Source: Archivesica marissinica (lineage: Eukaryota > Mollusca > Bivalvia > Venerida > Vesicomyidae). From it: a stretch of DNA of 64,000 bases. The notes below the pieces were generated by a model. That model was not told where the DNA came from. It worked only from the letters and a program-made list of their open reading frames with translations, and ran no database searches. This document shows, piece after piece, positions 11,971 through 50,600 of the stretch. The stretch is taken from assembly GCA_014843695.1 (NCBI GenBank), contig CM026387.1:75704013-75768012 (forward strand), written 5' to 3'. Numbering within the stretch: position 1 is the first letter of the stretch; every line of letters starts with the position of its first letter. The translations under genes and the position numbers were made by a program.

Positions 11971-12144
11971 TTATCTATATAATCGAGCAAATTCTCGTAA
12001 AGCGTCTGAAATGGGAGTAACTTTTTCTGCGCTAGTGACTGCTTTATGGAAGTCTGTTAATTGTTTGTGTGTAACTGTTATTGCTCCTCCGGTACTCTCT
12101 GTCGGCAAGGCCTTCAATACATGCTCCAACCATACACAGAATGT
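11971..12144 (-). CDS. TNPO3: TNPO3 in-window exon 22, C-terminus and stop
   Basis: 174 nt including a TAA stop at 11971-11973. It encodes [20 protein letters not shown] then [20 protein letters not shown] and ends LREFARLYR, matching the vertebrate end (WALRDFTRLFR). The acceptor is tttactttgcag. No clear polyadenylation signal follows closely. The first minus-strand AATAAA hexamers seen downstream lie in the SINE at 11117-11165, so the 3' UTR is not defined. Confidence 0.97.
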
Positions 12145-15100
12145 CTGCAAAGTAAAGTTGTACATACAAACATATATTTTGGTTTATAAACTTGCGCTAT
12201 ATGCAATCATATATAACTCGGTATGTGCAGCACAAGTCAATGTATATAATTATACACCAGTAGAGAAAAAAACAACTAAACTGCCCAATATTCATGAAGA
12301 TCTCTTTACAACACTGACAAAACAACAACTGCATGATGCGGATAGGAAGATGGGCCATGTAGAAAGGAAGATAGACCATGTGGAATGGAAGGTGGGTCAT
12401 GTGGAATGGAAGGTGGGTCATGTGGAAAGGAAGGTGGGTTATGTGGAAAGGAAGGTGGGTCATGTGGAATGGAAGATAGACCATGTGGAATGGAAGGTGG
12501 GTCATGTGGAATGGAAGGTGGGTCATGTGGAAAGGAAGATGGGTCATGTGGAAAGGAAGATGGGCCATGTGGAATGGAAGATGGGCCATGTGGAAAGGAA
12601 GGTGGGTCATGTGGAAAGGAAGATGGGCCATGTGGAATGGAAGATGGGCATTGTGGAATGGAAGATGGGCCATGTGGAATGGAAGTTGTGCCATGTGGAA
12701 AGGAAGATGAGTCATGTGGAAAGGAAGATGAGCCATGTGGAAAGGAATATAGACCATGTGGAAAGGAAGATGAGCCATGTGGAAAGTAAGATGAGCCATG
12801 TGAATAGGAAGATGGCGATGTAGAATGGAAGATGCCACCGCCTTATTAACGCTGCAATAATTGTGCTGAGTGGTGGGATGAGATACACTTTATACTTACT
12901 GGTCTATCAACCTGCATGATCTCATACAGCACATCACTGATGTCCGCCGACATGTAAGTAGGTAGACAGAACACGATAGAATGTATGAGGGAATGCACCA
13001 ATGACTGCCCGTGTTCTTGTAATAATGCCTTTACTAGTGTACTTCTTGTTTCAAAATCTGCATGCTCCTGTGGGGAAACACAAGTTGTGAAAAATTCATA
13101 TTTAATGTTGTTCACTGGTACTATTTCAAGACATAGCAGATTAATTCTATAACTGTCCCAAGAATTTTGAAATGTCATGTAATTATTCATGAACTGTTCA
13201 TACAAATGTCATGTAATTATTCATGAACTGTTCATACAAATGTCATGTAATTATTCATGAACTGTTCATACAAATGTCATGTAATTATTCATGAACTGTT
13301 CATACAAATGTCATGCAATTATTCATGAACTGTTCATACAAATGTCATGCAATTATTCATGAACTGTTCATACAGATGTCATGTAATTATTAATGGACTG
13401 TTCATACAAATGTCATGCAATTATTCATGAACTGTTCATACAAATGTCATGCAATTATTCATGAACTGTTCATACAAATGTCATGTAATTATTAATGGAC
13501 TGTTCATACAAATGTCATGTAATTATTCATGAACTGTTCATACAAATGTCATGTAATTATTAATGGACTGTTCATACAAATGTCATGCAATTATTCATGA
13601 ACTGTTCATACAAATGTCATGTAATTATTCATGGACTGTTCATACAAATGTCATGTAATTATTAATGGACTGTTCATACAAATGTCATGTAATTATTCAT
13701 GAACTGTTCATACAAATGTCCTGTAATTATTCATGAACTGTTCATACAAATGTCATGTAATTATTCATGGACTGTTCATACAAATGTCATGTAATTATTC
13801 ATGAACTGTTCATACAAATGTCATGTAATTATTCATGAACTGTTCATACAAATGTCATGTAATTATTCATGGACTGTTCATACAAATGTCATGTAATTAT
13901 TCATGAACTGTTCATACAAATGTCATGTAATTATTCATGAACTGTTCATACAAATGTCATGTAATTATTCATGGACTGTTCATACAAATGTCATGTAATT
14001 ATTCATGGACTGTTCATACAAATGTCATGTAATTATTCATAAACTGTTCATACAAATGTCATGTAATTATTCATGGACTGTTCATACAAATGTCATGTAA
14101 TTATTCATGGACTGTTCATGCAACTGTTTTAGGAATAACATAAAGCCATCATAGTATACTACTGAAGTCGGTGTAAACCTCTATTAACCAACCAGCTTCC
14201 GGGCTACAGTAACTGGCCTTTTATTACAGATTTGTCCTCTGATATGCAGCCTCTTCCTGTAGTTCCCCGGACTGATTGCTTACGACAGGGTTGACCGGTA
14301 CTTACACCCTACGACAGGTTTGACCGGTACTTACACCTTACGACAGGTTTGACCGGTACTTACACCTTACGACAGGGTTGACCGGTACTTACACCTTACG
14401 ACAGGTTTGACCGGTACTTATGGGTTTGACCGGTACTTACACCTTACAACAGGTTTGACCGGTACTTACACCTTACAACAGGTTTGACCGGTACTTACAC
14501 CTTACGACAGGTTTGACCGGTACTTACACCTTACGACAGGTTTGACCGGTACTTACACCTTACGACAGGGTTGACCGGTACTTACACCTTACGACAGGGT
14601 TGACCGGTACTTACACCTTACGACAGGGTTGACCGGTACTTACACCTTACAACAGGTTTGACCGGTACTTACACCTTACGACAGGGTTGACCGGTACTTA
14701 CACCTTACGACAGGGTTGACCGGTACTTACACCTTACGACAGGTTTGACCGGTACTTACACCTTACGACAGGTTTGACCGGTACTTACACCTTACGACAG
14801 GTTTGACCGGTACTTACACCTTACGACAGGTTTGACCGGTACTTACACCTTACGACAGGGTTGACCGGTACTTACATTACACAGGTTTGACCGGTACTTA
14901 CACCCTACGACAGGTTTGACCGGTACTTACACCTTACAACAGGTTTGACCGGTACTTACAACAGGTTTGACCGGTACTTACACCTTACGACAGGTTTGAC
15001 CGGTACTTACACCTTACGACAGGTACTTACACCTTACGACAGGTTTGACCGGTACTTACACCTTACGACAGGTTTGACCGGTACTTACACCTTACGACAG

Positions 15101-18100
15101 GTTTGACCGGTACTTACACCTTACGACAGGTTTGACCGGTACTTACACCTTACGACAGGTTTGACCGGTACTTACACCGTACAACAGGTTTGACCGGTAC
15201 TTACACCTACGACAGGTTTGACCGGTACTTACACCTTACGACAGGTTTGACCGGTACTTACAACAGGTTTGACCGGTACTTACACCTTACGACAGGTTTG
15301 ACCGGTACTTACACCTTACGACAGGGTTGACCGGTACTTACACCTTACAACAGGTTTGACCGGTACTTACAACAGGTTTGACCGGTACTTACACCTTACG
15401 ACAGGTTTGACCGGTACTTACACCTTACGACAGGGTTGACCGGTACTTACACCTTACAACAGGTTTGACCGGTACTTACATCCTTGGAAGATGATGCCTT
15501 AACAAATTCGGTAATAAATTTCATGACAGAAGCGTTGGAATCCTTGTGGTCAAGTGTACATGAAGCTATTGCACACATCAACACGGGTTTCATCACCACA
15601 CTCTGTAGGAACGGTAACGGAGAGCGCTGAATAAATCTGCAATACACAAGAGTAAGTTTGTGTCCAAACCTCCTTAACCTACAATCATTCATCTACAAAT
15701 ACAAACATTCCTCCACAAATACAAACATTCATCCACAAATACAAACATTCCTCCACAAATACAATCATTCATCCACAAATACAAACATTCCTCCACAAAT
15801 ACAAACATTCCTCCACAAATACAATCATTCATCCACAAATACAAACAGTCCTCCACAAATACAAACATTCCTCCACAAATACAAACATTCCTCCACAAAT
15901 ACAAACATTCCTCCACAAATACAAACAGTCCTCTACAAATACAAACATTCATCCACAAATACAAACATTCCTCCACAAATACAAACAGTCCTCTACAAAT
16001 ACAAACATTCCTCTACAAATACAAACATTCCTCTACAAATATTCATCCACAAATACAAACATTCCTCTACAAATACAAACAGCCCTCCACAAATACAAAC
16101 ATTCATCCACAAATACAAACAGTCCTCCACAAATACAAACATTCCTCCACAAATACAAACAAACAGTCCTCCACAAATACAAACAATCATTCCTCCACAA
16201 ATACAAACAATCATTCCTCCACAAATACAAACAGTCCTCCACAAATACAAACATTCATCCACAAATACAAACATTCATCCACAAATACAAACAGTCCTCC
16301 ACAAATACAAACAAACAGTCCTCCACAAATACAAACAATCATTCCTCTACAAATACAAACAATCATTCCTCCACAAATACAAACAGTCCTCCACAAATAC
16401 AAACATTCATCCACAAATACAAACAAACAGTCCTCCACAAATACAAACATTCCTCCACAAATACAAACATTCCTCCACAAATACAAACATTCCTCCACAA
16501 ATACAAACATTCCTCCACAAATACAAACAAACAGTCCTCCACAAATACAAACAAACAGTCCTCCACAAATACAAACATTCCTCCACAAATACAAACAGTC
16601 CTCTACAAATACAAACATTCACCCACAAATACAAACATTCATCCACAAATACAAACATTCCTCCACAAATACAAACATTCCTCCACAAATACAAACAGTC
16701 CTCTACAAATACAAACATTCATCCACAAATACAAACAGCCCTCCACAAATACAAACATTCATCCTAAATACAACAAACATTCCTCCACAAATACAAACAT
16801 TCATCCATAAATACAAACATTCCTCCACAAATACAAACATTCATCCATAAATACAAACACATTCATCCACAAATACAAACATTCCTCTACAAATACAAAC
16901 ATTCATCCACAAATACAAACATTCCTCCACAAATACAAACATTCATCCATAAATACAAACAAACATTCATCCACAAATACAAACATTCCTCTACAAATAC
17001 AAACATTCATCCACAAATACAAACATTCCTCTACAAATATTCACCCACAAATACAAACATTCCTCTACAAATACAAACATTCCTCTACAAATACAAACAT
17101 TCCTCCACAAATACAAACAGTCCTCTACAAATACAAACATTCCTCCACAAATACAAACATTCCTCTACAAATACAAACATTCTTCCACAAAATACAAACA
17201 GTCCTCCACAAATACAAACATTCCTCCACAAATACAAACATTCCTCCACAAATACAAACAATCATTCCTCCACAAATACAAACATTCCTCCACAAATACA
17301 AACATTCCTCCACAAATACAAACAATCATTCCTCCACAAATACAAAACAAACATTCCTCCACAAATACAAACAAACAGTCCTCCACAAAACAAACATTCC
17401 TCCACAAACAAACATTCCTCCACAAATACAAACAAATATTCCTCCACAAATACAAACAAACAGTCCTCCACAAATACAAACAATCATTCCTCCACAAATA
17501 CAAACAATCATTCCTCCACAAATACAAACAGTCCTCCACAAATACAAACATTCATCCACAAATACAAACATTCATCCACAAATACAAACAGTCCTCCACA
17601 AATACAAACAAACAGTCCTCCACAAATACAAACAATCATTCCTCTACAAATACAAACAATCATTCCTCCACAAATACAAACAGTCCTCCACAAATACAAA
17701 CATTCATCCACAAATACAAACAAACAGTCCTCCACAAATACAAACATTCCTCCACAAATACAAACATTCCTCCACAAATACAAACAGTCCTCTACAAATA
17801 CAAACATTCACCCACAAATACAAACATTCATCCACAAATACAAACATTCATCCACAAATACAAACATTCACCCACAAATACAAACATTCCTCCACAAATA
17901 CAAACAGTCCTCTACAAATACAAACATTCATCCACAAATACAAACATTCATCCATAAATACAAACAAACATTCCTCCACAAATACAAACATTCCTCCACA
18001 AATACAAACATTCCTCCACAAATACAAACATTCCTCCATAAATACAAACATTCATTCATAAATACAAACAAACATTCCTCCACAAATACAAACATTCCTC

Positions 18101-24100: not shown

Positions 24101-27100
24101 CTTATGATAATTGTGCATGTGAAATAGGCATTTTAATTATCAACCCCACAATACCTTTTTTCCAAATCTAACAATATTTTCAGGAATCAAGTGCAAAGAA
24201 TTATGAAATATGACCAATATCTCTGTAATTTGTAATCAGTCGACAGACATACCTGAGGCACTAGTGGCTGGAGGAGCGGTGAGGAGCTCTTACCCAGGCA
24301 CCGGATGGCAAACCTAATACACCTGCAGCATCTCTCCACGATCCGTACATCAGACTGGTACTTGGTGCATGCTTGAGATAACACCGGCCATACCTGTAAT
24401 ACCAAGACAACCTGGGATAGAAACAAAACTAGAGCATCCAATAACACCGGCCATACCTGTAATACTTGTATCACACGTGTACACATGGATGGACCTGACC
24501 ATTGGTTACTGTAGGGGGTTTATAAAGGAACATACCTCTTGTATCACGTGTACACATGGATGGACCTGACCATTGGTTACTGTAGGGGGTTTATAAAGGG
24601 AACATACCTCTTGTATTACATGTACACATGGATGGACCTGACCATTGGTTACTGTAGGGGGTTTATAAAGGGAACATACCTCTTGTATTACATGTACACA
24701 TGGATGGACCTGACCATTGGTTACTGTAGGGGGTTTATAAAGGGAACATACCTCTTGTATTACATGTACACATGGATGGACCTGACCATTGGTTACTGTA
24801 GGGGGTTTATAAAGGGAACACACCTCTTGTATTACATGTACACATGGATGGACCTGACCATTGGTTACTGTAGGGGGTTTATAAAGGGAACATACCTCTT
24901 GTATTACATGTACACATGGATGGACCTGACCATTGGTTACTGTAGGGGGTTTATAAAGGGAACATACCACTTGTATTACATGTACACATGGATGGACCTG
25001 ACCATTGGTTACTGTAGGGGGTTTATAAAGGGAACATACCTCTTGTATTACATGTACACATGGATGGACCTGACCATTGGTTACTGTAGGGGGTTTATAA
25101 AGGGAACATACCTCTTGTATTACATGTACACATGGATGGACCTGACCATTGGTTACTGTAGGGGGTTTATAAAGGGAACATACCTCTTGTATTACATGTA
25201 CACATGGATGGACCTGACCATTGGTTACTGTAGGGGGTTTATAAAGGGAACATACCTCTTGTATTACATGTACACATGGATGGACCTGACCATTGGTTAC
25301 TGTAGGGGGTTTATAAAGGGAACATACCTCTTGTATCACGTGTACACATGGATGGACCTGACCATTGGTTACTGTAGGGGGTTTATAAAGGGAACATACC
25401 TCTTGTATTACATGTACACATGGATGGACCTGACCATTGGTTACTGTAGGGGTTTATAAAGGGAACATACCTCTTGTATTACATGTACACATGGATGGAC
25501 CTGACCATTGGTTACTGTAGGGGTTGTATATCTGAAACATAACAAGCAAATTAAATTAATTTATATCCCATGCCAAACAGGTGAGAAAAACACTGCATAC
25601 ATTGTAAACAAAACGAAGTTTGTTTGTATATATAAAACTTGTCTATCATCATGTTTTGATGTGCCTAAATGCATTCCATAATTGTTGAGATATTCTCCGG
25701 ACAAAACTCTCATACCATATTCATAAAATTTCATAGGGCCATAATTCAACAATTACACAAGGCAGGGCTTCTAAAATTTTCAAAACCAAATCACATATCG
25801 TTCCAATATTTTTTTGACCCAACAACGCCCACCCCCCATAAATTCCGTGTTTTTGTATCATTTTTAAAATAAGGCTTTTAACAAGTTTATTGATATTTGA
25901 ACAGTGAAGTGCGGGGCAGTCATTAAAATCGCCGTATACTACGGCCAGGGATACTACGGCGTAAGACGAGGCTGAGTTGACTAGGGTATAGGTTGACCAT
26001 GTACGTGTATATGTCAGAGATGCATGGGTGTATCTATGCAATCGGCTGTCAATGGCATTATCTCGTCCATTAAGTGAGCACTGTGTAGTAAAATCAATTT
26101 CACAGACTTTCCATATCTATTTTTAGACACGCACCTCTGTTTGAAATATTTAATTATTTACATATTTAATGATACTTAATCCTCGCACACTTGGAATCAA
26201 ATGAATCAATCGTCTTTTCATTATTAATCATTCATTACAAATCAAACTTTTCAGCTTTCTGTTTGAAATATTAATTATTTAATTTAATTTTTTTAAATTT
26301 TATTATTTTCCTTTTATAGCATACAGAACATAATTGTCACATGTTAACACTATACATAGTACTTAATGAACATATAATTATAATTCTTATCTATTTAATA
26401 TGACTTTGTGCTGACAGTTACAAATATTTCCTATTTCAAAATTCTTGCATCTGATGCATGGATGCCATAAAAGGTGTCCGTCTTAAATGTGACACTCCCA
26501 TGCTTGACGGATAAATTGTTAAGGTATATAAACATTCATGAAAAGGGGTTTTTGAATACATGTTTAAAAAGATAACTTTATTAAAACTCCCAATGATCAT
26601 AATGTCCCCAATTTAGCACTTAAAGTTCAAATTTCGATGTGTAGTTCTCTTACGACGGTTTAGATAGTTACTGCAGATTAAAAAAAGACCATTTGAACAT
26701 ATGATAATTTACTTTATCATGCATTATTGCAATCTCCTTTTCAAGAGAAATTCTCATTTTCAAGTAGTTTAAGAACTGCTCAATGTTGGGAATATTTTTT
26801 CTGTATTTTATTTGAAATATAAATGATTTCATTAAAAAGATAATGAAATTTATTATTTAATAGCAAATATAATCCTCACACACTTCTTTTTAAAGTTATT
26901 GCAAACAATTTTCAAAATCTTTCATATATAATCGACCGTCAATCATTCGGTCCACTTCAAAAAAACTAAAAACCGTCGGTAGCTTAGCTGTAAACATCAA
27001 ACGATTACCGCGCTAATTTCATGTAATTGACATGACATGCATTGAAAGTTTGATCGTCAAGGATACATACATTGGGGCAAATTCATAGTCCCAGGTGGCA

Positions 27101-36100: not shown

Positions 36101-39100
36101 CATACATGATCCAGGTCCATTTGACAGTGCTGCCATAAGGCTATGATTGAGTACATACATGATCCGGGTCCGTTTGACAGTGCTAACATAAGGCTATGAT
36201 TGAGTACATACATGATCCGGGTCCATTTGACAGTACTAACATAAGGCTATGATTGAGTACATACATGATCCAGGTCCATTTGACAGTGCTGCCATAAGGC
36301 TATGATTGAGTACATACATGATCCAGGTCCATTTGACAGTGCTGCCATAAGGCTATGATTGAGTACATACATGATCCGGGTCCGTTTGACAGTGCTAACA
36401 TAAGCTATGATTGAGTACATACATGATCCAGGTCCATTTGACAGTGCTAACATAAGGCTATGATTGAGTACATACATGATCCGGGTCCATTTGACAGTGC
36501 TGACATAAGGCTATGATCAGTCTCTGTATATAAGGCTTGAACACTTCATTTAACTCCGATGTATTTCTGTGGTATAGGTCTTCCGACAATTTGTACCAGT
36601 AGTTAAACGTTACTTCAGCTACCTGTTAAATATAAACAAATTCATATTTTGAGTGTTTGTTGGTTTTGAATTTGGGGTTTAAACTTGCACCAACAGTTTA
36701 GGTTATATGGTGATGCACATGTAGAACCACCAACCTTTCGCCAGCCAACTGGATAACTTCCCTCACTTGAGAATCAACAGCTGTGAGAGGCAAGTGAGTT
36801 GAAGTCACTGACCGTAACCACTTGGCTACGGAGATCCTTCTTGTGACTTTAAAGCATTAAATGGGAGTACGAGCACAGGCACCCATCTAGGCAGTATTTC
36901 AGACTTGGGCGAGTATCTGTGTAGAACCATCAACCTTCACAAGCGAGGTTGGTAACATTTCAACAACATAGGGTTCGAAACAACGATTTTAAACATCTAC
37001 AGGGATCATTCTAGAAGGCGAAATTGTCGCCCTAGGGACCCTGACTTCGCGCTTCTCCCTGAAATAAAAAAAAATTATTTTGGTTTTTATGATTTTCAAA
37101 CAAAATTTTGTCTAGTAAGATACACTGGCCCATTATGAAGCACTCCTATTCAAATGTTGTATTTAATGGTTTGTACTGTGTGCATTTTAATCCTATTTTG
37201 CAGAAGTATATTAAAGAACACTATTTAAGGAAGCGATCATGCGCTTTCTCACTTCTCCCAAAAATTCTGACCTAGAATGAACCCTGCATCTAGTACCGTT
37301 TCACATTAAAGTTCGCTGAGAACAAAGATTACATGAATTATTAAAGTATCACTGTATGTTGGAGCAGACACATATATTTCCTGTGTGGAAATGTCCACCC
37401 TAGTTTTGTTGCTGCTTACTTTCCCATTGTATTGTTCCAAATATACATCATAGTCCAGTAGCCAAACCAAGATTTCAGGCCTACCCGTAAAGTTGAGCAT
37501 AACCACAATTTTGTTTTTGAAATTAGCAAGTGAGGGATGTCCCATTTGAGAATCTGATCCAATTCCACTCTAGTTAGCTTAGATCCACTCTAGTTAGCTT
37601 AGATCCACTCTAGCTTAGATCTACTCTAGTTAGCTTAGATCCACTCTAGTTAGCTTAGATCCACTCTAGTTAGCTTAGATCTCTAGTTAGCTTAGATCCA
37701 CTCTAGCTTAGATCCACTCTAATTAGCTTAGATCCACTCTAGTTAGCTTAGATCCACTCTAGTTAGCTTAGATCCACTCTAGTTAGCTTAGATCCACTCT
37801 AGTTAACTTAGATCCACTCTAGTTAGCTTATTGAAATACATGTACTTGGTGTTCTTTACTATACAAAGAAATTAACAGTTCTGTTTCAATTTAAACTAAA
37901 TGGTAAATAGAAGATAGTTGAGTATTGGAAAGCATAGCATGGTCTGGAGGGGGATTGCATGGTAAGGAGGGGGATGGTATGGAGGGGGATTGCATGGTAT
38001 GGAGGGGGATTGCATGGTATGGAGGGGGATTGCATGGCATGGTATGGAGGGGGATTGCATGGCATGGTATGGAGGGGGATTGCATGGTCTGGAGGGGGAT
38101 TGCATGGTATGGAGGGGGATTGCATGGCATGGTATGGAGGGGGATTGCATGGTATGGAGGGGGATTGCATAGCATGGTCTGGAGGGGGATTGCATAGCAT
38201 GGTCTGGAGGGGGATTGCATGGTCTGGAGGGGGATTGCATGGTCTGGAGGGGGATTGCATGGTATGGAGGGGGATTGCATGGTCTGGAGGGGATTGCATG
38301 GTATAGATGGGGAGAACACCGACACAAGACCTAGGCTTATAGTCTCACACGATAGCATGGTCTGGAGGGTGGATTGCATGGTATAGATGGGGAGAGCACC
38401 GACATAAGACCTAGGTTTATAGTCTCACACAATAGCATGGTATGGAGGGGGATTGCATCGTATAGATGGGGAGAGCACCGACACAAGACCTAGGTTTATA
38501 GTCTTACATGACAGCATGGTATGGAGGGGGATTGCATGGTATAGATGGGGAGAGCACCGACACAAGACCTAGGTTTATAGTCTTACATGATAGCATGGTA
38601 TGGAGGGGATTGCATGGTATAGATGGGGAGAGCACCGACACAAGACCTAGGTCTATAGTCTTACACGATAGTATGGTCTGGAGGGGGGTTGCATGGTATA
38701 GATGGGGAGAGCACCGACACAAGACCTAGGTTTATAGTCTCACACGATAGCATGGTATGGAGGGGGATTGCATGGTATAGATGGGGAGAGCACCGACACA
38801 AGACCTAGGTCTATAGTCTTACACGATAGTATGGTCTGGAGGGGGGTTGCATGGTATAGATGGGGAGAGCACCGACACAAGACCTAGGTTTATAGTCTCA
38901 CACGATAGCATGGTATGGAGGGGGATTGCATGGTATAGATGGGGAGAGCACCGACACAAGACCTAGGTTTATAGTCTTACACGATAGCATGGTATGGAGG
39001 GGGATTGCATGGTATAGATGGGGAGAGCACCGACACAAGACCTAGGTTTATAGTCTTACACGATAGCATGGTATGGAGGGGGATTGCATGGTATATATGG

Positions 39101-45100: not shown

Positions 45101-48100
45101 AGATTCATCATCTGTTAATAACTACCAAAAAAGTACAGTCATCAAGTGCACTAATTGGTCTTAAAAGGGACAACTTTATGGAACTAAAAAATAAAGATTT
45201 GCAAGTAACATTATGTTAAACATCTTACATTTTTACAATATTGTTTGTGGATAGAAATGTTGACTACAGATACAGTACAGAGAGAAATATCTGAACTATA
45301 TATAATCGGCCAGATAAAAAGTTACAAATGTGTCGCAACCGGGCATGATAGTAACTGCATATTAATGATTTGTAGGCTATATATTTACCTCTACACAGTA
45401 GAGAGCATTGCACACACAATCAGTAGCAGCTTCATGTAAACCGCTTGTACACTCCGTAGATACCTAAAACATGAACATACCACGTATATTGTTTCAGTCT
45501 GTACACCACATTCTACAGCAATAGGTATTACATGAACTTGACAGGTACACTGTTAACAGTCTGTACACCACATTCTACAGCAACAGGCATTACATGCACA
45601 TGACAGGTACACTGTTAACAGTATATACACCAAATACTACAGCAATAGGTACTACATGCACTTGACGGGTACACTGTTAACAGTCTGTACACCAAATACT
45701 ACAGCAATAAGTACTACATGCACTTGACATCACATAACAACATCTTGGACACTCACGAGATACTTAGAGGCCACCCGAGAGTCTTAAAACATCACATAAC
45801 AAAATCCTGGGATACTCACCATAGCTTTAAATGGCGCAGTAAACAGAGTAGACTGTACAACAGTTTCAGGAATGGCGTCTATGTTGTACCAACTACTGAG
45901 ACACTTTAGGATTTTCACTTGAATCTGGATATCTGTCGACACATTATCTATACACACGCCCTGAAATACACACAAACAATGCATTACACATCATGCTGAC
46001 ATATTCTCTGTACACACGCCCTGAAATACACACAAACAATGCATTACACATCATGCCGACATATTCTCTATACACATACCCTAAATACACACAAACAATG
46101 CATTACACATCATGCTGACATATTCTCTATACACATACCCTAAATACACACAAACAATGCATTACACATCATGCTGACATATTCTCTATAAACATACCCT
46201 AAATACACACAAACAATGCATTACACATCATGCTGACATATTCTCTATACACATACCCTAAATACACACAAACAATGCATTACACATCATGCTGACATAT
46301 TCTCTGTACACATACCCTAAATACACACAAACAATGCATTACACATCATGCTGACATATTCTCTATACACATACCCTATATACACACATCAATGCATTAC
46401 ACATCATGCTGACATATTCTCTATACACATACCCTAAACACATGCAAACAATGCATTACACATCATGCTGACATATTCTCTATATTCTCTATACACATGC
46501 CCTGAAATACACACAAATAATGCATTACACAGCATGCTGACATATTCTCTATACACATACCCTAAATACACGCAAACAATGCATTACACATCATGCTGAC
46601 ATATTCTCTATACACATACCCTAAATACACACAAACAATGCATTACACATCATGCTGACATATTCTCTGTACACATACCCTAAATGCACGCAAACAATGC
46701 ATTACACATCATGCTGACATATTCTCTGTACACATACCCTATATACACGCAAACAATGCATTACACATCATGCTGACATATTCTCTGTACACATACCCTA
46801 AAATGCATTATATATTATTTTGACATATTTTTATATATACACACACACCCTGAAATAGTATCAAATACACACAAACAAAATGCATTACAAACACATAATG
46901 TAACATTGTTGACATACACCCCCTAAAATGTCAGGGTTCCCGCTGTCGGTCGCCAATTGCGACAAAAAATAAATAGTGGCGCTAAATTTTGTGAATTCGC
47001 GAAAATATTTGGCGCAAAATTTTTATTTTATTTTGGGCACATGTTTTGTCAAATACATGGCTTCAAATATTTATTTGTGAACTATATAGCTCTTATTTGT
47101 CGCCAAGTTTTTTAAATTGGTTCCAGTGTTTTTCAATTGGCGACAGAAGTGGCGCAGACAAACATTCAGACAGAGGGAACCCTGAATATACACAATACGT
47201 TGACATATTCTCAATTTCCCTACATATATCGAAATGTGCATAAACCTTCAATACGGAGCATTATAAACAGTAGAGGATATCATGTTGCATTTCAACCATA
47301 CGTCATACAGTTCATGCTATATTTTCTATGCAGTAATACAAAAGAATATAATTGTGTACGCTACCAGTAACTGAAGGACAACTTGTGACGATGACTTGAG
47401 ATCTTCCATCACTTCCTGTCGTCTGTTGGCACCGAGACGTAATGAACGACTATTAATCTGAATGATATGACAAGAAATAGTTCATGTGTATATTTTCAAT
47501 AGATAATTAAAGCGACACTGCATCAGTGAAAACAACAATTTTCTACAGAATGTAATTTCCTGTTATATGGTATAAATTTTTTCCAAATATTTTTTCAACT
47601 AATAAACAAACGTCGTATACGTGGTTTGTTGACATAACAAAATAATGTAAATAGGGTCGACATCCATGCGTAATACGACGCGCGTATCTTTAATAACACG
47701 ATTTATGGTACAGATTTACCGCTATTCTAACATTTGTACCCGTGCATATTTATTTGTAGGCTAATCTTAGCTAAATTATATCTAAATGACAGTACCACAC
47801 GTTAAGTATTGACTCCAATGACAAACACATGTCAATTCAGGAGCATGGATGACCATTATATGAAATGCTACTTTCAGATTTTGAAAATTTGTAGACCACA
47901 AACACTGTTTATTGATTCAATGTTATTGTTCAAATGTATTCGGAAGAATTTGTAGTAGCAATGCATTTATACGTGAAAAAATGCATTTTATTTGCTTTTT
48001 GCGATGTAATGTCGCTTTGAAGTGAAAAAGAAAGCTTGGTTCAAACTCATGGTGCTATTACGGGGGAAAGCCTGTACATGCCAAAGGCCCGCTGCGGCAT

Positions 48101-50600
48101 GTACCACATATAGATAACATGTACGAGACATGTGTAAACAAAATAAACATGGAAACCAACATAAAACTTACCAATTATGTGGTCATTTGTGTGGGAGGAA
48201 ACCGGAGTACCCGGAGAAAACCCACCTGTCCGATCTGGCGACCACCGTACCATCTCACATACCTCCCGGTCTGAGGATCGAACCGGGGTCGCATTGGTGA
48301 GAAGCAAGCGCGCTAACCACTGCGCTAATCGGACAGCCATTCCTGATTTCTAGCAGAAGAGGCAATTATTATTTTGCTACTGTTCTGTATTAGTGAGCGT
48401 ATACACTACAGTTATATGTAAATTGAGAAGTCATTCATATAGCACTAGGTACGTTTCTTTGGTACAAATGTAATGAAACAAATAAGTTACGGTATTATGG
48501 GCGCAGTAATTCTGTTTTCGTGGTTATGGGCAATATACACTTGGATTTCGTCCTTTGTGAGAGCTATTCATAAAATCCGGACAAAACGCCGCTCGATCTG
48601 TCAAATGACTTTCTTATTATGGAATAGGATTTTATAGCTTAATCGCATTGGGCTCATGTATCCGTGATTTCTGCAAATACATTTAACGTCTAGAAGAAAA
48701 GCACAATCTATCTATCTATCTGTAACGATTGTGCCCTTAGGCAGGGCATTTAAATTCCACGTTGCCTCTTCTCTCTCGCTTGTGGCGATGGAATCCATCA
48801 GGAATGAGGTCACGAGAGTGATTAATATAAGTTGTAAGAACTTGTTTCGCTAAAATAACTTTGTATAAACTAAATGATGTTTATTTAAATGGTAAGTAAC
48901 AGTGATTTACCTCTTCTGGTAAGACTATAAGCACTTCTAACAGGAATGGAAGTTGTGCAGCATTTGATCCAAATCTGTAACACAGGAAGTCAGAACACAA
49001 TCAATATACAGATGAATGGATGAATACACAGGAAGTTAGAACACAATCAATATACAGACGAATGGATGAATCCACAGGAAGTCTGAACACAATCAATATA
49101 CAGACGAATGGATGAATCCACAGGAAGTCTGAACACAATCAATATACAGACGAATGGATGAATCCACAGGAAGTCGGAACACAATCAATATACAGACGAA
49201 GGGATGAATCCACAGGAAGTCAGAACACAATCAATATACAGATGAATGGATGAATCCACAGGAAGTCAGAACACAATCAATATACAGATGAATGGATGAA
49301 TCCACAGGAAGTCAGAACACAATCAATATACAGATGAATGGATGAATCCACAGGAAGTCGGAACACAATCAATATACAGACGAATGGATGAATCCACAGG
49401 AAGTTAGAACACAATCAATATACAGATGAATGGATGAATCCACAGGAAGTTAGAACACAATCAACATACAGACGAAGGGATGAATCCACAGGAAGTCAGA
49501 ACACAATCAATATACAGACGAATGGATGAATCCACAGGAAGTCAGAACACAATCAATATACAGACGAATGGATGAATCCACAGGAAGTCAGAACACAATC
49601 AATATACAGAGGAATGGATGAATCCACAGGAAGTCAGAACACAATCAATATACAGACGAATGGATGAATCCACAGGAAGTCAGAACACAATCAATATACA
49701 GACGAATGGATGAATCTATGTTTCAGGTTTATATGTAGCTTGCAACACCTGATAGCAGCACTGTACCTGATAACAGCACTGGACCTGAATGCAGCACTGG
49801 GCCTGATAGCAGCACTGGACATGATAGCAGCACTGGACCTGGTAGTAGCACTGGACCTGATAGCAGCACTGGACCTGATAACAGCACTGGACCTGGTAGT
49901 AGCACTGGACCTGAATGCAGCACTGGACCTGGTAGTAGCACTGGACCTGATAGCAGCATTGGACCTGGTAGCAGCACTGGACATGATAGCAGCACTGGAC
50001 CTGGTAGTAGCACTGGACCTGATAGCAGCACTGGACCTGATAACAGCACTGGACCTGGTAGTAGCACTGGACCTGAATGCAGCACTGGACATGATAGCAG
50101 CACTGGACCTGGTAGTAGCACTGTACCTGATAGCAGCACTGGACCTGATAGCAGCACTGTACCTGATAACAGCACTGGACCTGATAACAGCACTGGACCT
50201 GATAGCAGCACTGGACCTGATAGCAGCACTGGACCTGATAACAGCACTGGACCTGAATGCAGCACTGGACCTGAAAGCAGCACTGGACCTGATAACAGCA
50301 CTGGACCTGATAACAGCACTGGACCTGATAACAGCACTGGACAACACACCTCCCCAAGAAAAATATAAACAGTAATGTAATAATACACCTATTAAAATGT
50401 CCCATTCAGGTGCACGGTGTTTCAGGTACCACCATGCTAACTACATGTATATACTGTACAAACTGGGAACTAGCTGCCCTGTCCGACTGAAAGGAAAAAA
50501 CAATCAAAGATGGGAGGAATACTTACTTTTGGATTAGGTCTTGTACTGGATTTTTCCAAGCTAACATCTGTAGGGCAAGGTCAGCTAATGCTAAACTCAA
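11971..50600 (-). CDS. TNPO3: Transportin-3 gene, 22 exons, 5' end missing
   Basis: Importin-beta-family nuclear import receptor. The family binds RanGTP and carries SR-domain splicing factors into the nucleus. Joined exons (5' to 3', minus strand): 50527-50600, 48911-48974, 47365-47457, 45820-45960, 45389-45463, 43234-43334, 41976-42051, 40353-40415, 36476-36622, 33862-33969, 31282-31379, 30231-30370, 29462-29653, 28466-28557, 27400-27485, 25471-25531, 24253-24393, 23925-24041, 22593-22687, 15480-15636, 12900-13067, 11971-12144. They total 2463 nt, i.e. 820 codons plus stop, with every phase consistent and all junctions GT/AG. Diagnostic matches to TNPO3 as I know it: [89 protein letters not shown]. 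The human protein is about 923 residues, so the first ~100 residues are absent and lie upstream of 50600, probably beyond the LINE and outside the window. No stop or frameshift interrupts the joined exons, so the gene looks functional. Confidence 0.96.
12341..12835. repeat. 21-bp purine-rich minisatellite in the last TNPO3 intron, about 23 copies
   Basis: The unit is gtggaaaggaagatgggccat. The plus strand is purine-rich, so the TNPO3 pre-mRNA is pyrimidine-rich here. 21 is a multiple of 3 and all frames stay open on both strands, giving false ORFs up to 287 codons. Confidence 0.96.
12900..13067 (-). CDS. TNPO3: TNPO3 in-window exon 21 (residues 708-763)
   Basis: 168 nt encoding [20 protein letters not shown] through [20 protein letters not shown], ending QVDRP. 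It matches [25 protein letters not shown]. The acceptor is tttccccacag and the donor gtaagtata. Confidence 0.97.
13160..14119. repeat. 34-bp minisatellite, about 28 copies
   Basis: The unit contains aactgttcatacaaatgtca then tgtaattattcatg. It lies in the intron between in-window exons 20 and 21, about 90 bp from exon 21. Confidence 0.97.
14160..14295. mobile_element. Remnant of the TA-type MITE
   Basis: Contains cctctattaaccaaccagct and the right-end-like gcttacgacagggttgac. The terminal ctgta is replaced by ccggtacttaca, the start of the adjacent 29-bp array. Confidence 0.65.
14283..15480. repeat. 29-bp minisatellite (about 40 copies) built on the exon 20 donor site
   Basis: On the minus strand each unit reads gtaagtaccggtcaaacctg then tcgtaaggt. 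The first unit is the authentic exon 20 splice donor (AAGGAT|gtaagtaccggtc), so a near-consensus 5' splice site recurs every 29 bp. The other half of the unit matches the right end of the TA-type MITE (gcttacgacagggttgac). Confidence 0.95.
15480..15636 (-). CDS. TNPO3: TNPO3 in-window exon 20 (residues 655-707)
   Basis: 157 nt encoding [20 protein letters not shown] through [20 protein letters not shown], matching RFIQRSPVTLLRSQVV...ASTTLDHRDANCSVMRF. The acceptor is gtgtattgcag. The donor gtaagtaccggtc is the first of about 40 tandem near-copies in the 29-bp array at 14283-15480. Confidence 0.96.
15681..22048. repeat. 20-bp minisatellite, 6.4 kb, over 300 copies
   Basis: The unit is acaaacattcctccacaaat, with variants in attc/agtc, cctcc/cctct/atcc, and 4-bp acaa additions. 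It fills nearly all of the TNPO3 intron between exons 19 and 20. Stretches at 18440-18960 and 20000-21000 have many one-base losses (for example cctcacaaat) that break the period. These look more like residual long-read error or assembly collapse than ordinary divergence. Confidence 0.97.
22073..22338 (+). mobile_element. SINE family B (Thr-tRNA-like head)
   Basis: The head is tgtagtccagtggtaacacg then ctggactggtaatccag, an anticodon-arm-like stem with GGT in the loop. Box B is decayed (ggattgatccc). The tail is cgctcatatgggcaaccggt then agcgacaataaataaacg. A second copy lies at 29022-29300 on the minus strand. Confidence 0.87.
22480..22562. repeat. 21-bp tandem repeat, 4 copies
   Basis: The unit is ataaatcatgctcacttcag plus one base. 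It ends about 30 bp from the exon 19 donor. Confidence 0.9.
22593..22687 (-). CDS. TNPO3: TNPO3 in-window exon 19 (residues 624-655)
   Basis: 95 nt encoding [20 protein letters not shown] then [11 protein letters not shown], matching [22 protein letters not shown]. The acceptor is acttacttacag and the donor gtcagtac. The following intron is about 7 kb, almost all of it the 20-bp array. Confidence 0.97.
22782..22945 (+). mobile_element. SINE family A, diverged
   Basis: The head tagcacagtggctaactcac and cgcttctcaccaatg are recognisable. The middle is degraded and the tail (tgttgttaggggttgtttca) matches the family end. Confidence 0.75.
22964..23145. mobile_element. TA-type MITE
   Basis: Ends tacagtcaaccctgtcttaa and aacacagggttgactgta form an inverted pair flanked by TA. 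Contains gtggctgcttaacataggtg. Confidence 0.85.
23320..23920. other. Non-coding stretch next to exon 18
   Basis: Contains repeated wording such as aaggtcaaccaagactttga, gtgaccttggatcc and gggtcatctactgagaatgg. It resembles a dispersed repeat, but I cannot define its ends. No gene is seen. Confidence 0.4.
23925..24041 (-). CDS. TNPO3: TNPO3 in-window exon 18 (residues 585-623)
   Basis: 117 nt encoding [20 protein letters not shown] then [19 protein letters not shown], nearly identical to the vertebrate segment [16 protein letters not shown]. The acceptor is gttattatag and the donor gtatatatc. Confidence 0.97.
24253..24393 (-). CDS. TNPO3: TNPO3 in-window exon 17 (residues 538-584)
   Basis: 141 nt encoding [20 protein letters not shown] then [20 protein letters not shown], matching [21 protein letters not shown]. 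The acceptor is ttggtattacag and the donor gtatgtctg. A 25-bp copy of the acceptor plus the first 16 exon bases lies 63 bp upstream in the transcript, at 24441-24465. Confidence 0.97.
24441..24465 (-). repeat. Duplicate of the exon 17 acceptor and first 16 exon bases
   Basis: 25 bp identical to 24378-24402, 63 bp upstream in the transcript. It contains attacag followed by GTATGGCCGGTGTTAT. It joins directly to the last unit of the exon 16 array. Confidence 0.9.
24466..25530. repeat. 72-bp minisatellite (about 14.8 copies) carrying exon 16 and its donor
   Basis: On the minus strand each unit is 44 bp of exon 16 (from TAACCAATGGTCAGG to ATACAAGAG) plus 28 bp of intron (gtatgttccctttataaacc...). 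It therefore has an exon-internal ctacag that could act as an acceptor and an intact gtatgt donor. The most 5' copy at 25471-25531 is the authentic exon. Two one-base deletions (near 25450 and 24526) interrupt the otherwise open frame. The last copy is fused to a duplicate of the exon 17 acceptor. Confidence 0.96.
25471..25531 (-). CDS. TNPO3: TNPO3 in-window exon 16 (residues 517-537), head of an exon-bearing array
   Basis: 61 nt encoding [20 protein letters not shown], matching [20 protein letters not shown]. The acceptor ttatgtttcag is unique to this copy. The donor is gtatgttccc. The last 44 exon bases plus 28 intron bases are repeated about 14 times downstream (24466-25470) as a 72-bp minisatellite. 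Only this first copy has both the unique acceptor and the phase needed to join exon 15 (phase 2) to exon 17 (phase 0). Confidence 0.93.
25532..27399. other. TNPO3 intron, AT-rich and without recognised elements
   Basis: About 1.9 kb with no tandem array, which is unusual for this gene's longer introns. It contains a short GC-rich block near 25910-25990 (gtatactacggccagggata). I see no coding similarity on either strand. Confidence 0.5.
27400..27485 (-). CDS. TNPO3: TNPO3 in-window exon 15 (residues 489-517)
   Basis: 86 nt encoding [20 protein letters not shown] then LDRLSAVF plus two bases of Arg, matching SSDPTVFLDRLAVIFR. The acceptor is tttatgttgtag and the donor gtaatacaag. A 23-bp minisatellite starts about 20 bp upstream of the acceptor. 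Confidence 0.94.
27505..28010. repeat. 23-bp minisatellite, about 21 copies, near the exon 15 acceptor
   Basis: The unit is gtgtctatagcaaaatctca then cag. On the minus strand each unit contains ttttgctatag, which resembles a 3' splice site. The array starts about 20 bp from the authentic acceptor, whose upstream sequence (gtgagattttgctg) is a partial unit. Confidence 0.95.
28180..28350. repeat. 76-bp duplication, about two copies
   Basis: gtattggtgctatacactgg and ctaggaatgttcctggaact occur twice in tandem, with a partial third copy. Confidence 0.9.
28386..28465. repeat. AAAC/GTTT microsatellite containing the exon 14 donor
   Basis: A plus-strand run of acaaacaaacaa ends at 28465. On the minus strand the exon ends AATAAG and the intron begins gtttgtttgtttg, so the splice donor is the first repeat unit. 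Confidence 0.95.
28466..28557 (-). CDS. TNPO3: TNPO3 in-window exon 14 (residues 458-488)
   Basis: 92 nt encoding [20 protein letters not shown] then [10 protein letters not shown], matching [24 protein letters not shown]. Both ends touch repeats. The acceptor ttctaatctattcag is the first member of a 53-bp tandem array, and the donor gtttgtttg lies inside a GTTT microsatellite. Confidence 0.9.
28556..28800. repeat. 53-bp array (about 4.7 copies) carrying the exon 14 acceptor
   Basis: On the minus strand each unit contains gtcttctaatctatgcag followed by GTGTGG. The authentic acceptor is ttctaatctattcag|GTGTGG, and copies recur at 28611, 28664, 28717 and 28770 (approximate). Only about 6 exon bases are included. 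Confidence 0.92.
29022..29300 (-). mobile_element. SINE family B
   Basis: A minus-strand copy with an intact head (tctgtagtccagtggtaaca), box B ggttcgattcccc and the shared tail agcgacaataaat. It lies in the intron between exons 13 and 14. Confidence 0.9.
29462..29653 (-). CDS. TNPO3: TNPO3 in-window exon 13 (residues 394-458)
   Basis: 192 nt, the longest exon. It encodes [20 protein letters not shown] through [20 protein letters not shown] and ends GLLKG, matching [20 protein letters not shown]...[20 protein letters not shown]. The acceptor is aaatttcag and the donor gtttgtct. Confidence 0.96.
30231..30370 (-). CDS. TNPO3: TNPO3 in-window exon 12 (residues 347-394)
   Basis: 140 nt encoding [20 protein letters not shown] through [20 protein letters not shown], matching [21 protein letters not shown]. 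The acceptor is ctatttgacag and the donor gtaagttat. Confidence 0.96.
30699..30810 (-). mobile_element. SINE family E, fragment
   Basis: Contains gctcgattgcgaaacaagtt, ttatattaatcactctcgag and cctgatggaatccatcgcca. Its tail shares the cgattgcgaaacaagtt motif with family A. A similar fragment without the tail lies near 29700-29790. Confidence 0.7.
30835..31150. repeat. 26-bp minisatellite, about 12 copies
   Basis: The unit contains aaaactcatcacaattttgc then aaagac. It lies in the intron between exons 11 and 12. Confidence 0.96.
31282..31379 (-). CDS. TNPO3: TNPO3 in-window exon 11 (residues 315-347)
   Basis: 98 nt encoding [20 protein letters not shown] through [12 protein letters not shown], matching [20 protein letters not shown]. 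The acceptor is ctttctacag and the donor gtaagtatc. It ends after two bases of a Pro codon. Confidence 0.95.
31461..31731 (+). mobile_element. MITE with CAGGGATCATTCTAG ends and 6-bp target duplication
   Basis: The left end CAGGGATCATTCTAG and right end CTAGAATGAACCCTG form imperfect inverted repeats. AAACAA flanks both sides (31455-31460 and 31732-31737). No ORF. Other copies: 33442-33762 (inverted) and 37000-37286. Confidence 0.85.
31884..32365 (+). mobile_element. TTAA-type MITE, copy 1
   Basis: Ends ttaaagcgatactacatc and gcgatgtaatgtcgctttaa are inverted repeats including TTAA, as expected for piggyBac- or Kolobok-type elements. Other copies: 47507-48020 and 63741-64000. Confidence 0.85.
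32440..32629. mobile_element. TA-type MITE, diverged left end
   Basis: Contains gttagtggtcacctccatta, aagcagccaacccatac and the right end gcttacgatagatttgactg. The left terminus is degraded. Confidence 0.75.
32697..32915 (-). mobile_element. SINE family E
   Basis: Contains agctcgattgcgaaacaagt, gagacctcattcctgatgga and cttgcctaagggcacaatcg. Read on the minus strand, the head side carries a box B-like region. Confidence 0.75.
33221..33366 (-). mobile_element. SINE family A, 5'-truncated
   Basis: Tail and core (gtgggaggaaaccggagtac) are present. The tRNA-like head is missing after cacctgtccgatctggc. Confidence 0.85.
33442..33762 (-). mobile_element. CAGGG-ended MITE, inverted copy
   Basis: Ends cagggttcattc and ctagaatgatccctg. 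TATAAT flanks both sides, with one extra G on the left. Confidence 0.8.
33862..33969 (-). CDS. TNPO3: TNPO3 in-window exon 10 (residues 279-314)
   Basis: 108 nt encoding [20 protein letters not shown] then [16 protein letters not shown], matching [25 protein letters not shown]. The acceptor tgtttcacttccag and the first 24 exon bases are iterated about 20 times upstream as a 60-bp minisatellite. I take the copy joined to the rest of the exon. The donor is gtaagtgtat. Confidence 0.95.
33946..35145. repeat. 60-bp minisatellite (about 20 copies) carrying the exon 10 acceptor
   Basis: On the minus strand each unit is 24 exon-like bases (GATGGCATCCTTGACCC...) plus 36 intron bases ending ctgtttcacttccag. 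A strong 3' splice site therefore recurs every 60 bp (or about 36-51 bp in shortened units) before the authentic exon 10. Read in the exon frame, each unit hits a TAA in its intron part. Confidence 0.96.
35284..35530 (+). mobile_element. SINE family F (tRNA-like head)
   Basis: The head is ctccgtggcctagtggttaa then ggcgtccat, with box B-like ggggttcgttctg. It is probably a SINE rather than a working tRNA, because the T-arm region is imperfect and a long non-tRNA body follows. Confidence 0.65.
35638..35722. repeat. 16-bp tandem repeat, 5 copies
   Basis: The unit ttcacttaatcatgct is repeated with one variant (cata). Confidence 0.92.
35935..36520. repeat. 53-bp minisatellite (about 11 copies) carrying the exon 9 donor
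   Basis: On the minus strand each unit is the last 42 bases of exon 9 (ATCATAGCCTTATG...GGATCAT) plus 11 intron bases gtatgtactca. The gtatgt donor recurs every 53 bp. Reading past the authentic donor hits TAG after five codons. Confidence 0.96.
36476..36622 (-). CDS. TNPO3: TNPO3 in-window exon 9 (residues 230-278)
   Basis: 147 nt encoding [20 protein letters not shown] through [20 protein letters not shown], matching FNFWYRLGEHLYK...YIQRLLHALARHCQLEPDH. The acceptor is tatttaacag. The donor gtatgtactc and the last 42 exon bases form the 53-bp minisatellite unit that fills 35935-36520. I take the most 5' donor because it joins in frame to the next exon. Confidence 0.94.
36668..36990 (-). 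mobile_element. SINE family D, two adjacent degraded copies
   Basis: The first copy is about 36668-36842 (aaacttgcaccaacagttta, ggctacggagatcc). The second, shorter copy runs to about 36990 and shares ggcacccatctaggcagtat and gtagaaccatcaacct. Confidence 0.7.
37000..37286 (+). mobile_element. CAGGG-ended MITE, copy 3
   Basis: Starts cagggatcattctag and ends ctagaatgaaccctg. The 6-bp CATCTA is duplicated at 36994-36999 and 37287-37292. Confidence 0.9.
37555..37835. repeat. 20-bp minisatellite, about 13 copies
   Basis: The unit is tagttagcttagatccactc. Confidence 0.95.
37925..38310. repeat. 20-bp G-rich minisatellite
   Basis: The unit is ggtatggagggggattgcat, with 5-bp additions (ggcat). It grades into the next, longer-unit array. 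Confidence 0.95.
38310..39480. repeat. 79-bp minisatellite, about 14 copies, derived from the 20-bp array
   Basis: The unit contains the 20-bp array motif (tatggagggggattgcatgg) plus gggagagcaccgacacaaga and cctaggtttatagt. The longer unit has evidently recruited flanking sequence. The accgacacaagacctaggtt part resembles the ggtctcgtgtcggtg region of SINE family B. Confidence 0.93.
39540..39785. repeat. 53-bp tandem repeat, about 4.5 copies
   Basis: The unit contains gtatgtcatgtttatacata and cagcatgacatcatcacttg. A separate 35-bp pair (gaatgacgtcacaacactac) follows at 39860-39928. Confidence 0.92.
40090..40325 (+). mobile_element. SINE family A, head lost, internal duplication
   Basis: The plus-strand copy lacks the tRNA-like head. 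The block gtgagatggtacggtggtcg to gggtactccag is duplicated (near 40103 and 40163). The tail ends gttgtaaaataaat, close to exon 8. Confidence 0.88.
40353..40415 (-). CDS. TNPO3: TNPO3 in-window exon 8 (residues 209-229)
   Basis: 63 nt encoding [20 protein letters not shown] then E, matching [21 protein letters not shown]. The acceptor is atattttcag and the donor gtaagattt. A plus-strand SINE ends about 30 bp away. Confidence 0.96.
40725..41295. repeat. 32-bp minisatellite, about 18 copies
   Basis: The unit contains acaagaccagagtatccgga then cacattcaaacc. Confidence 0.96.
41296..41957. repeat. Second 32-bp minisatellite, related to the previous one, about 20 copies
   Basis: The unit contains aaaaccactagatcaatgtg then tcccgacacaac. 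It has the same period and a common skeleton (agac/agat-ca-gtgtcc-gacaca), with transitional units between 41280 and 41420. The array ends about 20 bp from the exon 7 donor. Confidence 0.95.
41976..42051 (-). CDS. TNPO3: TNPO3 in-window exon 7 (residues 183-208)
   Basis: 76 nt encoding [20 protein letters not shown] then DKPNQ, nearly identical to [20 protein letters not shown]. The acceptor is ctgtttcag and the donor gtgggtag. A 32-bp minisatellite starts about 20 bp past the donor. Confidence 0.96.
42189..42515 (-). mobile_element. SINE family D with internal duplication
   Basis: Contains cttaaagtcgaccaggcagc at one end. The block gctatggaaactctccatct to aaccagctgc is present twice, about 110 bp apart. 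The head side is degraded. Confidence 0.7.
42540..43160. repeat. 40-bp minisatellite, about 15 copies
   Basis: The unit contains aagctttctgattggatgca then gtagagtacaaactctgcat. It ends about 75 bp from the exon 6 donor. Confidence 0.96.
43234..43334 (-). CDS. TNPO3: TNPO3 in-window exon 6 (residues 150-183)
   Basis: 101 nt encoding [20 protein letters not shown] through SVAEEDID plus two bases of Lys, matching [20 protein letters not shown]. The acceptor is cacactgcag. The donor is gtacac, a weak site. Confidence 0.92.
43381..43630 (+). mobile_element. SINE family C (tRNA-headed, tail shared with family B)
   Basis: The head has gttatcgaggtcgctgactt and box B gggttcgagcccc. The 3' end cgctcacatgggcaaccggt then agcgac matches family B, implying the same partner LINE. 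Confidence 0.82.
43735..43930 (+). mobile_element. SINE family E
   Basis: Contains box B-like ggattcgagccccgctgt, tgcccttaggcaaggcattt, ggattccatcaggaatgagg and the tail ttgtttcgcaatcaagctaa. Confidence 0.8.
43931..45388. other. TNPO3 intron, mostly unassigned
   Basis: No gene seen. Two related blocks occur about 170 bp apart (ttacaaattaggctacagag near 44561 and ggacaaattagggtacaggc near 44727), both followed by a cggcttccc/cggcacttctgtc-type motif. They suggest an old repeat I cannot name. Confidence 0.4.
45389..45463 (-). CDS. TNPO3: TNPO3 in-window exon 5 (residues 125-149)
   Basis: 75 nt encoding [20 protein letters not shown]..., matching [20 protein letters not shown]. The acceptor is catgttttag and the donor gtaaatata. 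It is phase 0 at both ends. Confidence 0.95.
45480..45740. repeat. ~64-bp tandem repeat, about 4 copies, upstream of exon 5
   Basis: Units contain ggtacactgttaacagtctg and caccacattctacagcaata. The array lies in the short intron between exons 4 and 5. Confidence 0.9.
45820..45960 (-). CDS. TNPO3: TNPO3 in-window exon 4 (residues 78-124)
   Basis: 141 nt starting [20 protein letters not shown] and ending LFTAPFKAM, matching the VFRCLGSWFNLGVL region. The acceptor tgtgtatttcag and about the first 23 exon bases form part of the 59-bp minisatellite unit lying immediately upstream in the transcript (45955-46800). The donor is gtgagtatc. A second, diverged copy of the donor region lies near 45745. 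Confidence 0.94.
45955..46800. repeat. 59-bp minisatellite (about 14 copies) carrying the exon 4 acceptor
   Basis: On the minus strand the unit nearest the exon reads gtgtatttcag|GGCGTGTGTA then CAGAGAATATGTC, matching the authentic exon start over about 23 bases with a few mismatches. Most units further away read tttagggtatgtg, keeping an AG. Confidence 0.93.
46931..47187. mobile_element. Small MITE with TCAGGGTTCCC ends
   Basis: Left end tcagggttcccgctgt and right end gagggaaccctga are inverted repeats. The interior is rich in gtggcg/tcgcca motifs. I could not find a clear target duplication. Confidence 0.7.
47365..47457 (-). CDS. TNPO3: TNPO3 in-window exon 3 (residues 47-77)
   Basis: 93 nt encoding [20 protein letters not shown]..., matching [20 protein letters not shown]. 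The acceptor is atatcattcag. The donor GTAGCG is weak compared with the gene's other donors. Confidence 0.95.
47507..48020 (+). mobile_element. TTAA-type MITE, copy 2
   Basis: Left end ttaaagcgacactgcatcag, right end gcgatgtaatgtcgctttga (the last TTAA mutated to TTGA). The interior is collinear with 31884-32365 (acaaacgtcgtatacg, tgtagaccacaaacactgtt). Confidence 0.88.
48171..48338 (-). mobile_element. SINE family A, 3'-truncated
   Basis: The head (ctaatcggacagcc on plus) and core (aaaccggagtacccggagaa) are well conserved. The tail is missing beyond tatgtggtcatttgtg. Confidence 0.88.
48722..48865 (+). mobile_element. SINE family E, 5'-truncated
   Basis: Contains cgattgtgcccttaggcagg, cgatggaatccatcaggaat and aagttgtaagaacttgtttc. 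Confidence 0.8.
48911..48974 (-). CDS. TNPO3: TNPO3 in-window exon 2 (residues 25-46)
   Basis: 64 nt encoding [21 protein letters not shown], matching SLPFLLEILTVLPEE of TNPO3. The acceptor cttcctgtgttacag takes its pyrimidine tract from the edge of the adjacent 46-bp minisatellite. The donor is gtaaatcac. Confidence 0.95.
48978..49715. repeat. 46-bp minisatellite (about 16 copies) starting in the exon 2 polypyrimidine tract
   Basis: The unit contains acaggaagtcagaacacaat and atacagatgaatggatgaat. On the minus strand each unit has tgttctgacttcctgtg, identical to the pyrimidine tract and possible branch point before exon 2. The final AG is not repeated. Confidence 0.94.
49740..50345. repeat. 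18-bp minisatellite, about 33 copies
   Basis: The unit is ctggacctgatagcagca. All frames stay open on both strands, producing spurious ORFs over 200 codons. Confidence 0.96.
50527..50600 (-). CDS. TNPO3: TNPO3 in-window exon 1 (residues 1-25 of the joined product)
   Basis: 74 nt encoding [16 protein letters not shown], equivalent to the LALAIADLALQM helix near residue 100 of TNPO3. The acceptor is gaattgcag and the donor gtaagtatt. It starts in phase 0 and ends after two bases of a Lys codon. This is the most 5' exon I can place. The next exon upstream should end around a SPVIVTQ-like motif and is not seen up to 64000. Confidence 0.93.

Follow-up and report, generated by a model that had tools for sequence, protein, structure and literature searches.

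Minisatellite arrays across exon–intron junctions of the transportin-3 gene in the clam Archivesica marissinica

Six exon–intron junctions of the transportin-3 gene (TNPO3) of A. marissinica lie within the repeat units of minisatellite arrays, so that copies in the intron carry a stretch of exon along with its splice site. We describe these arrays in a stretch of 64,000 nucleotides (the window) from an assembly of 1.54 Gb. Junction-spanning arrays are a known type of structure, the "mirages" of amphioxus, and what is new here is their dense occurrence in a bivalve. A single intron of TNPO3 or of XPO1 can hold its own splice site dozens of times over. This amounts to a natural experiment in splice-site choice, with as many as 42 similar sites lined up for the spliceosome, and to a route of intron growth. 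As to origin, we lean towards random local tandem duplication combined with tolerance at junctions, in a genome rich in repeats.

Junction-spanning arrays in TNPO3

We identified the host gene by a query of joined window translations, which matched the human structure PDB 4c0p_A (E 5e-83). A protein search had its best hits in Mactra antiquata (87% identity) and in Dreissena polymorpha (81%), as fits a bivalve host, probably a relative of Mactra. Spliced alignment with three templates, human TNPO3, Mactra antiquata P0001 and Dreissena P0002, gave 22 exons in the window, with internal boundaries identical for all three, and 21 introns, all GT-AG. The model tracks the 927-aa Mactra protein and contains no repeat insertion. 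Four earlier exons fall beyond the window (window-scale positions 64932–71922), and what an earlier note on this DNA took for exon 1 is in fact exon 5 of the gene; the junctions below keep that note's numbering (its exon 1 being gene exon 5). In the 5' model an empty exon was removed and the end of the first exon was set by hand, its donor being uncertain. Arrays were called with Tandem Repeats Finder (TRF) and then merged.

11974..50600, minus strand: TNPO3 exons 5 to 26 (22 exons) by spliced alignment; the first exon in the window starts at 50600
35936..36517, minus strand: array at the donor of exon 9; 53 bp, 11 copies, 42 exonic bases; junction between 36476 and 36475; GT kept in 10/10 intronic copies
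24465..25530, minus strand: array at the donor of exon 16; 72 bp, 14.8 copies; junction between 25471 and 25470; GT kept in 14/14 intronic copies
14279..15485, minus strand: array at the donor of exon 20; 29 bp, 6 exonic bases; junction between 15480 and 15479; GT kept in 41/42 intronic copies
45938..46802, minus strand: array at the acceptor of exon 4; 59 bp, 14.5 copies, 23 exonic bases; junction between 45961 and 45960; AG kept in 13/13 intronic copies
33946..35126, minus strand: array at the acceptor of exon 10; 60 bp, 20 copies, 24 exonic bases; junction between 33970 and 33969; AG kept in 19/19 intronic copies
28552..28797, minus strand: array at the acceptor of exon 14; 53 bp, 4.6 copies, 6 exonic bases; junction between 28558 and 28557
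28385..28465, minus strand: GTTT microsatellite forming or abutting the donor of exon 14 (TRF and gene model)
48981..49716, minus strand: 46-bp array edging the polypyrimidine tract of exon 2; stops 6 bases before the exon 2 acceptor
64793..64951 (window scale), upstream of the window: seventh spanning array of TNPO3, at the donor of the exon at 65003–64932; 49 bp, 3.2 copies

The earlier note had placed six junctions inside tandem-repeat units, the exon 14 donor at a GTTT microsatellite and the exon 2 polypyrimidine tract at the edge of an array. TRF and the spliced alignments bear out all of this: the GTTT run adjoins the donor, the 46-bp array ends where described, and each period given (29, 46, 53, 53, 59, 60 and 72 bp) matches TRF, the exon 20 donor array being listed at 29 bp and its best-scoring row having a period of 58. 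The 72-bp array takes in exon 16 except for one base (60 of 61) and, with it, the donor. All four intronic copies in the exon 14 acceptor array retain both AG and the six bases that open the exon, and the donor of the same exon, GTTTGT, is the first unit of the microsatellite and is weak by score. In the seventh array the splice site survives in only one of two further copies.

Copy-by-copy alignment of the window's six arrays showed the intronic copies to be pieces of exon with their splice site, the copies within an array differing by scattered substitutions and indels. Comparison of the seven units in the window, those of the six spanning arrays and of the 46-bp array, showed almost no relatedness: the local score exceeded that of all 60 shuffles in 2 of 21 pairs, and the highest was 20. 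Unit content and this near-lack of relatedness support independent expansions seeded on junction sequence, as had been proposed. Over the whole gene, TNPO3 has seven junction-spanning arrays (four donors, three acceptors) and XPO1, a second gene that we analyzed, has nine (four donors, five acceptors), with units of 24–72 bp.

Decoy splice sites and the reading frame

We asked of each copied splice site whether it is intact and what its use would do to the protein. Of the 102 intronic copies in the window's six arrays, 101 keep GT or AG. None of these intact decoys would leave the reading frame open if used (0/101), each bringing in a premature stop, so that normal TNPO3 protein needs the exon-most copy. 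The exon-most sites are probably used exclusively. A coding role in frame for the 72-bp exon 16 array was rejected, since its first intronic copy, at 71 bp, breaks the frame and all decoys run into a stop. At exons 9 and 16 most decoys score, on a simple measure, as high as the real site; at exon 20 most score lower. Across the 16 arrays of TNPO3 and XPO1 the site is kept in 263 of 271 intronic copies. Nineteen decoys leave the frame open, all of them in XPO1, where they sit in four arrays with units of 33, 45, 45 and 69 bp, all multiples of 3; inner sites of XPO1 could thus give in-frame repeat isoforms.

Only one of 204 dinucleotide cells has changed in the window's arrays (P = 0.07; 0.11 and 0.16 by two other measures), and over the 16 arrays the splice cores are slightly less variable than random unit positions (P = 0.03–0.07). 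Selection may keep decoy sites intact, although these figures are suggestive only because the copies share history. Low variation of the splice core could also arise through occasional replacement of the functional copy by another, to which the same data point weakly. Fourteen of the 16 arrays have six or more copies. In these, the functional copy resembles the adjacent one (0.937) as closely as interior neighbors resemble each other (0.932; P = 0.81), so the functional copy joins in homogenization. No significant degradation of coding sequence by the arrays was seen: array-covered exon residues are not significantly more diverged than those elsewhere, compared either with Mactra (10/54 vs 94/766, P = 0.20) or with Dreissena (15/54 vs 137/766, P = 0.10).

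Junction overlap against chance

The 28 merged arrays make up 52.8% of positions 11974–50600. The repeat share is 48.8% in the window, 41.1% in the whole 60-kb TNPO3 gene and 36.9% in the surrounding 264 kb. With repeats filling 53% of the exon-rich part of TNPO3, chance overlap with junctions matters, and it bears on the earlier claim that so many coincidences would be unexpected if array edges fell at random. We therefore compared the observed overlaps with three null models, excluding the GTTT run from minisatellite counts.

When arrays were shuffled inside present-day introns (null 1), eight arrays lay over a junction or at most 7 bases from one, against an expectation of 1.9 (P = 5e-5). 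We rejected this null as too lenient: present intron length is owed largely to the arrays themselves, which biases it. Permutation, the obvious test for repeats near junctions, is misleading if the arrays have not first been collapsed. We then collapsed each array to one unit and dropped the units at random on the collapsed gene (null 2), which gave six spanning arrays in the window's part of TNPO3 against 2.3–2.8 expected (P = 0.02–0.05). P ranged from 0.005 to 0.09 over stricter overlap rules and from 0.005 to 0.05 over score cut-offs. Dropping each collapsed unit at random in its own collapsed intron (null 3) raised the expectation to 5.0–5.3 (P = 0.37–0.45). Restricting null 3 to strong arrays (score 400 or more) gave six against 3.4–3.7 (P = 0.08–0.12), and restricting it to introns of at least 400 collapsed bases gave four against 1.7–1.9 (P = 0.07–0.10). 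With both restrictions the expectation fell to 1.3–1.5 (P = 0.03–0.05), a result that counts against purely random duplication. Arrays lie mainly in introns that become short on collapsing, while six of the 21 introns are array-free and hold 50% of the non-array intron sequence; null 3 may therefore hide some of a genuine junction effect.

We also analyzed further genes of the same genome. XPO1 and CLTC were named, as long conserved proteins, before their sequence was inspected, and FMO was the one gene modelled from the neighborhood of the window; the gene-wide expectation in these tests comes from a formula, unlike the simulation of null 2 used for TNPO3 in the window. The XPO1 model, on another chromosome-size contig, has 20 exons with 81% identity to the human template. 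Junctions are spanned by nine of its 21 arrays, where 3.0 would be expected within introns (P = 0.0007) and 2.1 gene-wide (P = 0.0001), which again counts against random duplication. In CLTC (part of the gene, 23 introns) none of 21 arrays lies on a junction, against 2.6 expected, and in FMO (a partial model) none of 14, against 0.3. A spurious last exon of the CLTC model (45 bp after a 39-bp intron) was dropped before the combined test, and the FMO model keeps a last exon of 12 bp that is probably spurious. Full TNPO3 has seven of 38 on junctions, against 5.5 within introns (P = 0.28) and 2.4 gene-wide (P = 0.007).

The four genes together hold 16 junction-spanning arrays among 140 junctions. 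These are 16 of 94 arrays, against 11.4 expected within introns (P = 0.08) and 7.4 gene-wide (P = 0.002); for strong arrays the figures are 13 of 55, against 7.8 (P = 0.03) and 5.1 (P = 0.0009), and for the three genes other than TNPO3 nine of 56, against 5.95 (P = 0.12) and 5.0 (P = 0.05). The share of arrays on junctions differs between XPO1 and CLTC (Fisher P = 0.001). Over these four genes a junction excess is present in some and absent in others, so that attraction of arrays to junctions is partly supported. The claim of more hits than chance therefore stands in part, with the biased null 1, the gene-wide collapsed null and XPO1 in its favor, and the within-intron collapsed null and CLTC against it.

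Origin of the arrays and related structures

Mirage-type minisatellites arising by random local tandem duplication and tolerated at junctions are, on balance, the reading we favor. The process would begin with tandem duplication of a short stretch at a roughly random position. Duplications inside an exon would be removed by selection, while those in an intron or across a junction would be tolerated, because the exon-most copy would still yield the same mRNA; the other copies would become intron, as the anatomy of the arrays shows. The array would then grow and homogenize by slippage or unequal exchange, each copy carrying its exon piece and splice site; the order of these events is our reconstruction. 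Junctions would often be hit, as many introns measured just a few hundred bases before array growth. Any extra pull of junctions on arrays is modest and gene-dependent.

Array density supports this account, as the exon-rich part has 1.43 arrays per collapsed kb, no more than the left flank outside the gene (1.57). The same figure argues against the possible but less probable alternative that exon–intron junctions are true birth hot spots of minisatellites, through sequence, chromatin or transcription, although the density does exceed that right of 50600 (1.00), which is TNPO3's own large upstream intron. Hot spots find their best support in XPO1, chosen before looking, and in the four genes combined (P = 0.002–0.08), but CLTC and FMO show nothing of the kind. 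The 21 non-spanning arrays of TNPO3 in the window also lie nearer to junctions than the gene-wide null 2 predicts (median 82.5 vs 250.5, P = 0.001), but this nearness fades and is not clear within introns (82 vs 111, P = 0.14). The earlier suggestion that junction sequence itself promotes duplication found no motif support, since no excess of donor-like motifs was seen in 36 non-junction arrays (P = 0.37–0.39). Were junctions nonetheless preferred birthplaces, more so in some genes than in others, which we regard as a tentative possibility, mutation coupled to exon ends would lengthen introns and build ladders of dozens of near-identical splice sites in competition, of which the outermost alone gives normal protein.

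It is unlikely that the arrays were born within introns and crept outwards, recruiting or replacing their flanks until a splice site was included and coding selection halted them. Unique sequence is indeed shorter in the array-bearing introns of TNPO3 and XPO1 (median 462, n = 28) than in those free of arrays (1064, n = 16; P = 0.005), but this difference could equally reflect transposon growth of array-free introns, and nothing marks the functional copy as a late arrival or an outlier in its array (14 arrays). The earlier proposal that arrays are kept up to the limit set by coding constraint agrees with the anatomy, in which coding sequence has to be preserved in the outermost copy, though simple tolerance may account for it as well.

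That some arrays made the introns themselves, by tandem duplication of AGGT-like exon sequence, is very improbable. Tandem genomic duplication of AGGT sequence is a described route of intron gain (PMC3443670) and has been proposed for amphioxus mirages (PMC3087553), and in the clam, too, tandem duplication copies splice-site sequence. However, the introns whose junctions carry the clam duplications may well be old, the opposite intron end lies in no array at four of the six spanned window junctions, and the remaining two junctions are both ends of intron 9, with two different arrays. Least probable of all is an assembly artefact, since long arrays are hard to assemble but no positive sign of one was seen, copies differ in a scattered manner and XPO1 shows the same pattern on a different contig.

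The closest counterparts are the amphioxus mirages, tandem repeats spanning exon–intron boundaries in Adh3, globin (BflGb6, BflGb9), PGBD5 and troponin C, in which many, but not all, copies are described as carrying AG/GT (PMC3087553, PMC3902484). Their clusters vary in length, and globin RT-PCR and Adh3 data are reported to suggest that regular splicing is undisturbed (PMC3087553). The clam units likewise span 5' or 3' boundaries with copies that carry AG or GT, and their lengths fall within those published for mirages (10–72 bp in Adh3, 150–160 bp in globins). In BflGb6 the copy at the cluster boundary is reported to be excluded from homogenization, unlike the functional copy in the clam; as that exclusion is reported for this one gene, we do not treat it as required for membership. 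The clam differs further in being a bivalve, in having up to 42 intronic copies and in having seven and nine arrays in single genes, as seen in genomic sequence alone. In human segmental duplications, internal tandem repeats at exon–intron boundaries are reported to alter gene structure in some cases (PMC2812944); those are recent paralogues with variable repeats, whereas the clam has a set of arrays at such boundaries within one conserved gene. A length-variable intronic 27-bp minisatellite is reported in an abalone gene and is not said there to span a junction (PMC6905558). Among the matches listed in our literature search, which left most subscription journals outside, there was no report of junction-spanning arrays in bivalves.

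Other repeats are conspicuous in the region. One intron contains a 6.4-kb array of a 20-bp unit (15680–22044) with extreme strand asymmetry (GC skew −0.94 over 16001–20000), and a long array at 3639–8361 mixes 119- and 80-bp units, with longer combined periods. Dispersed repeats recur across introns in 11971–50600 (107 self-matches in the window after array masking; 4273 bases in the part with the gene), some of which we take to be SINE-like. The ORFs at 57589–63087, presumably LINE-like, lie within the large TNPO3 intron upstream of 50600, with a gap of 1000 N at 59824–60823. Other ORFs near TNPO3 resemble, as we read them, FMO, a TBK1-like kinase, FOXO and several mobile elements.
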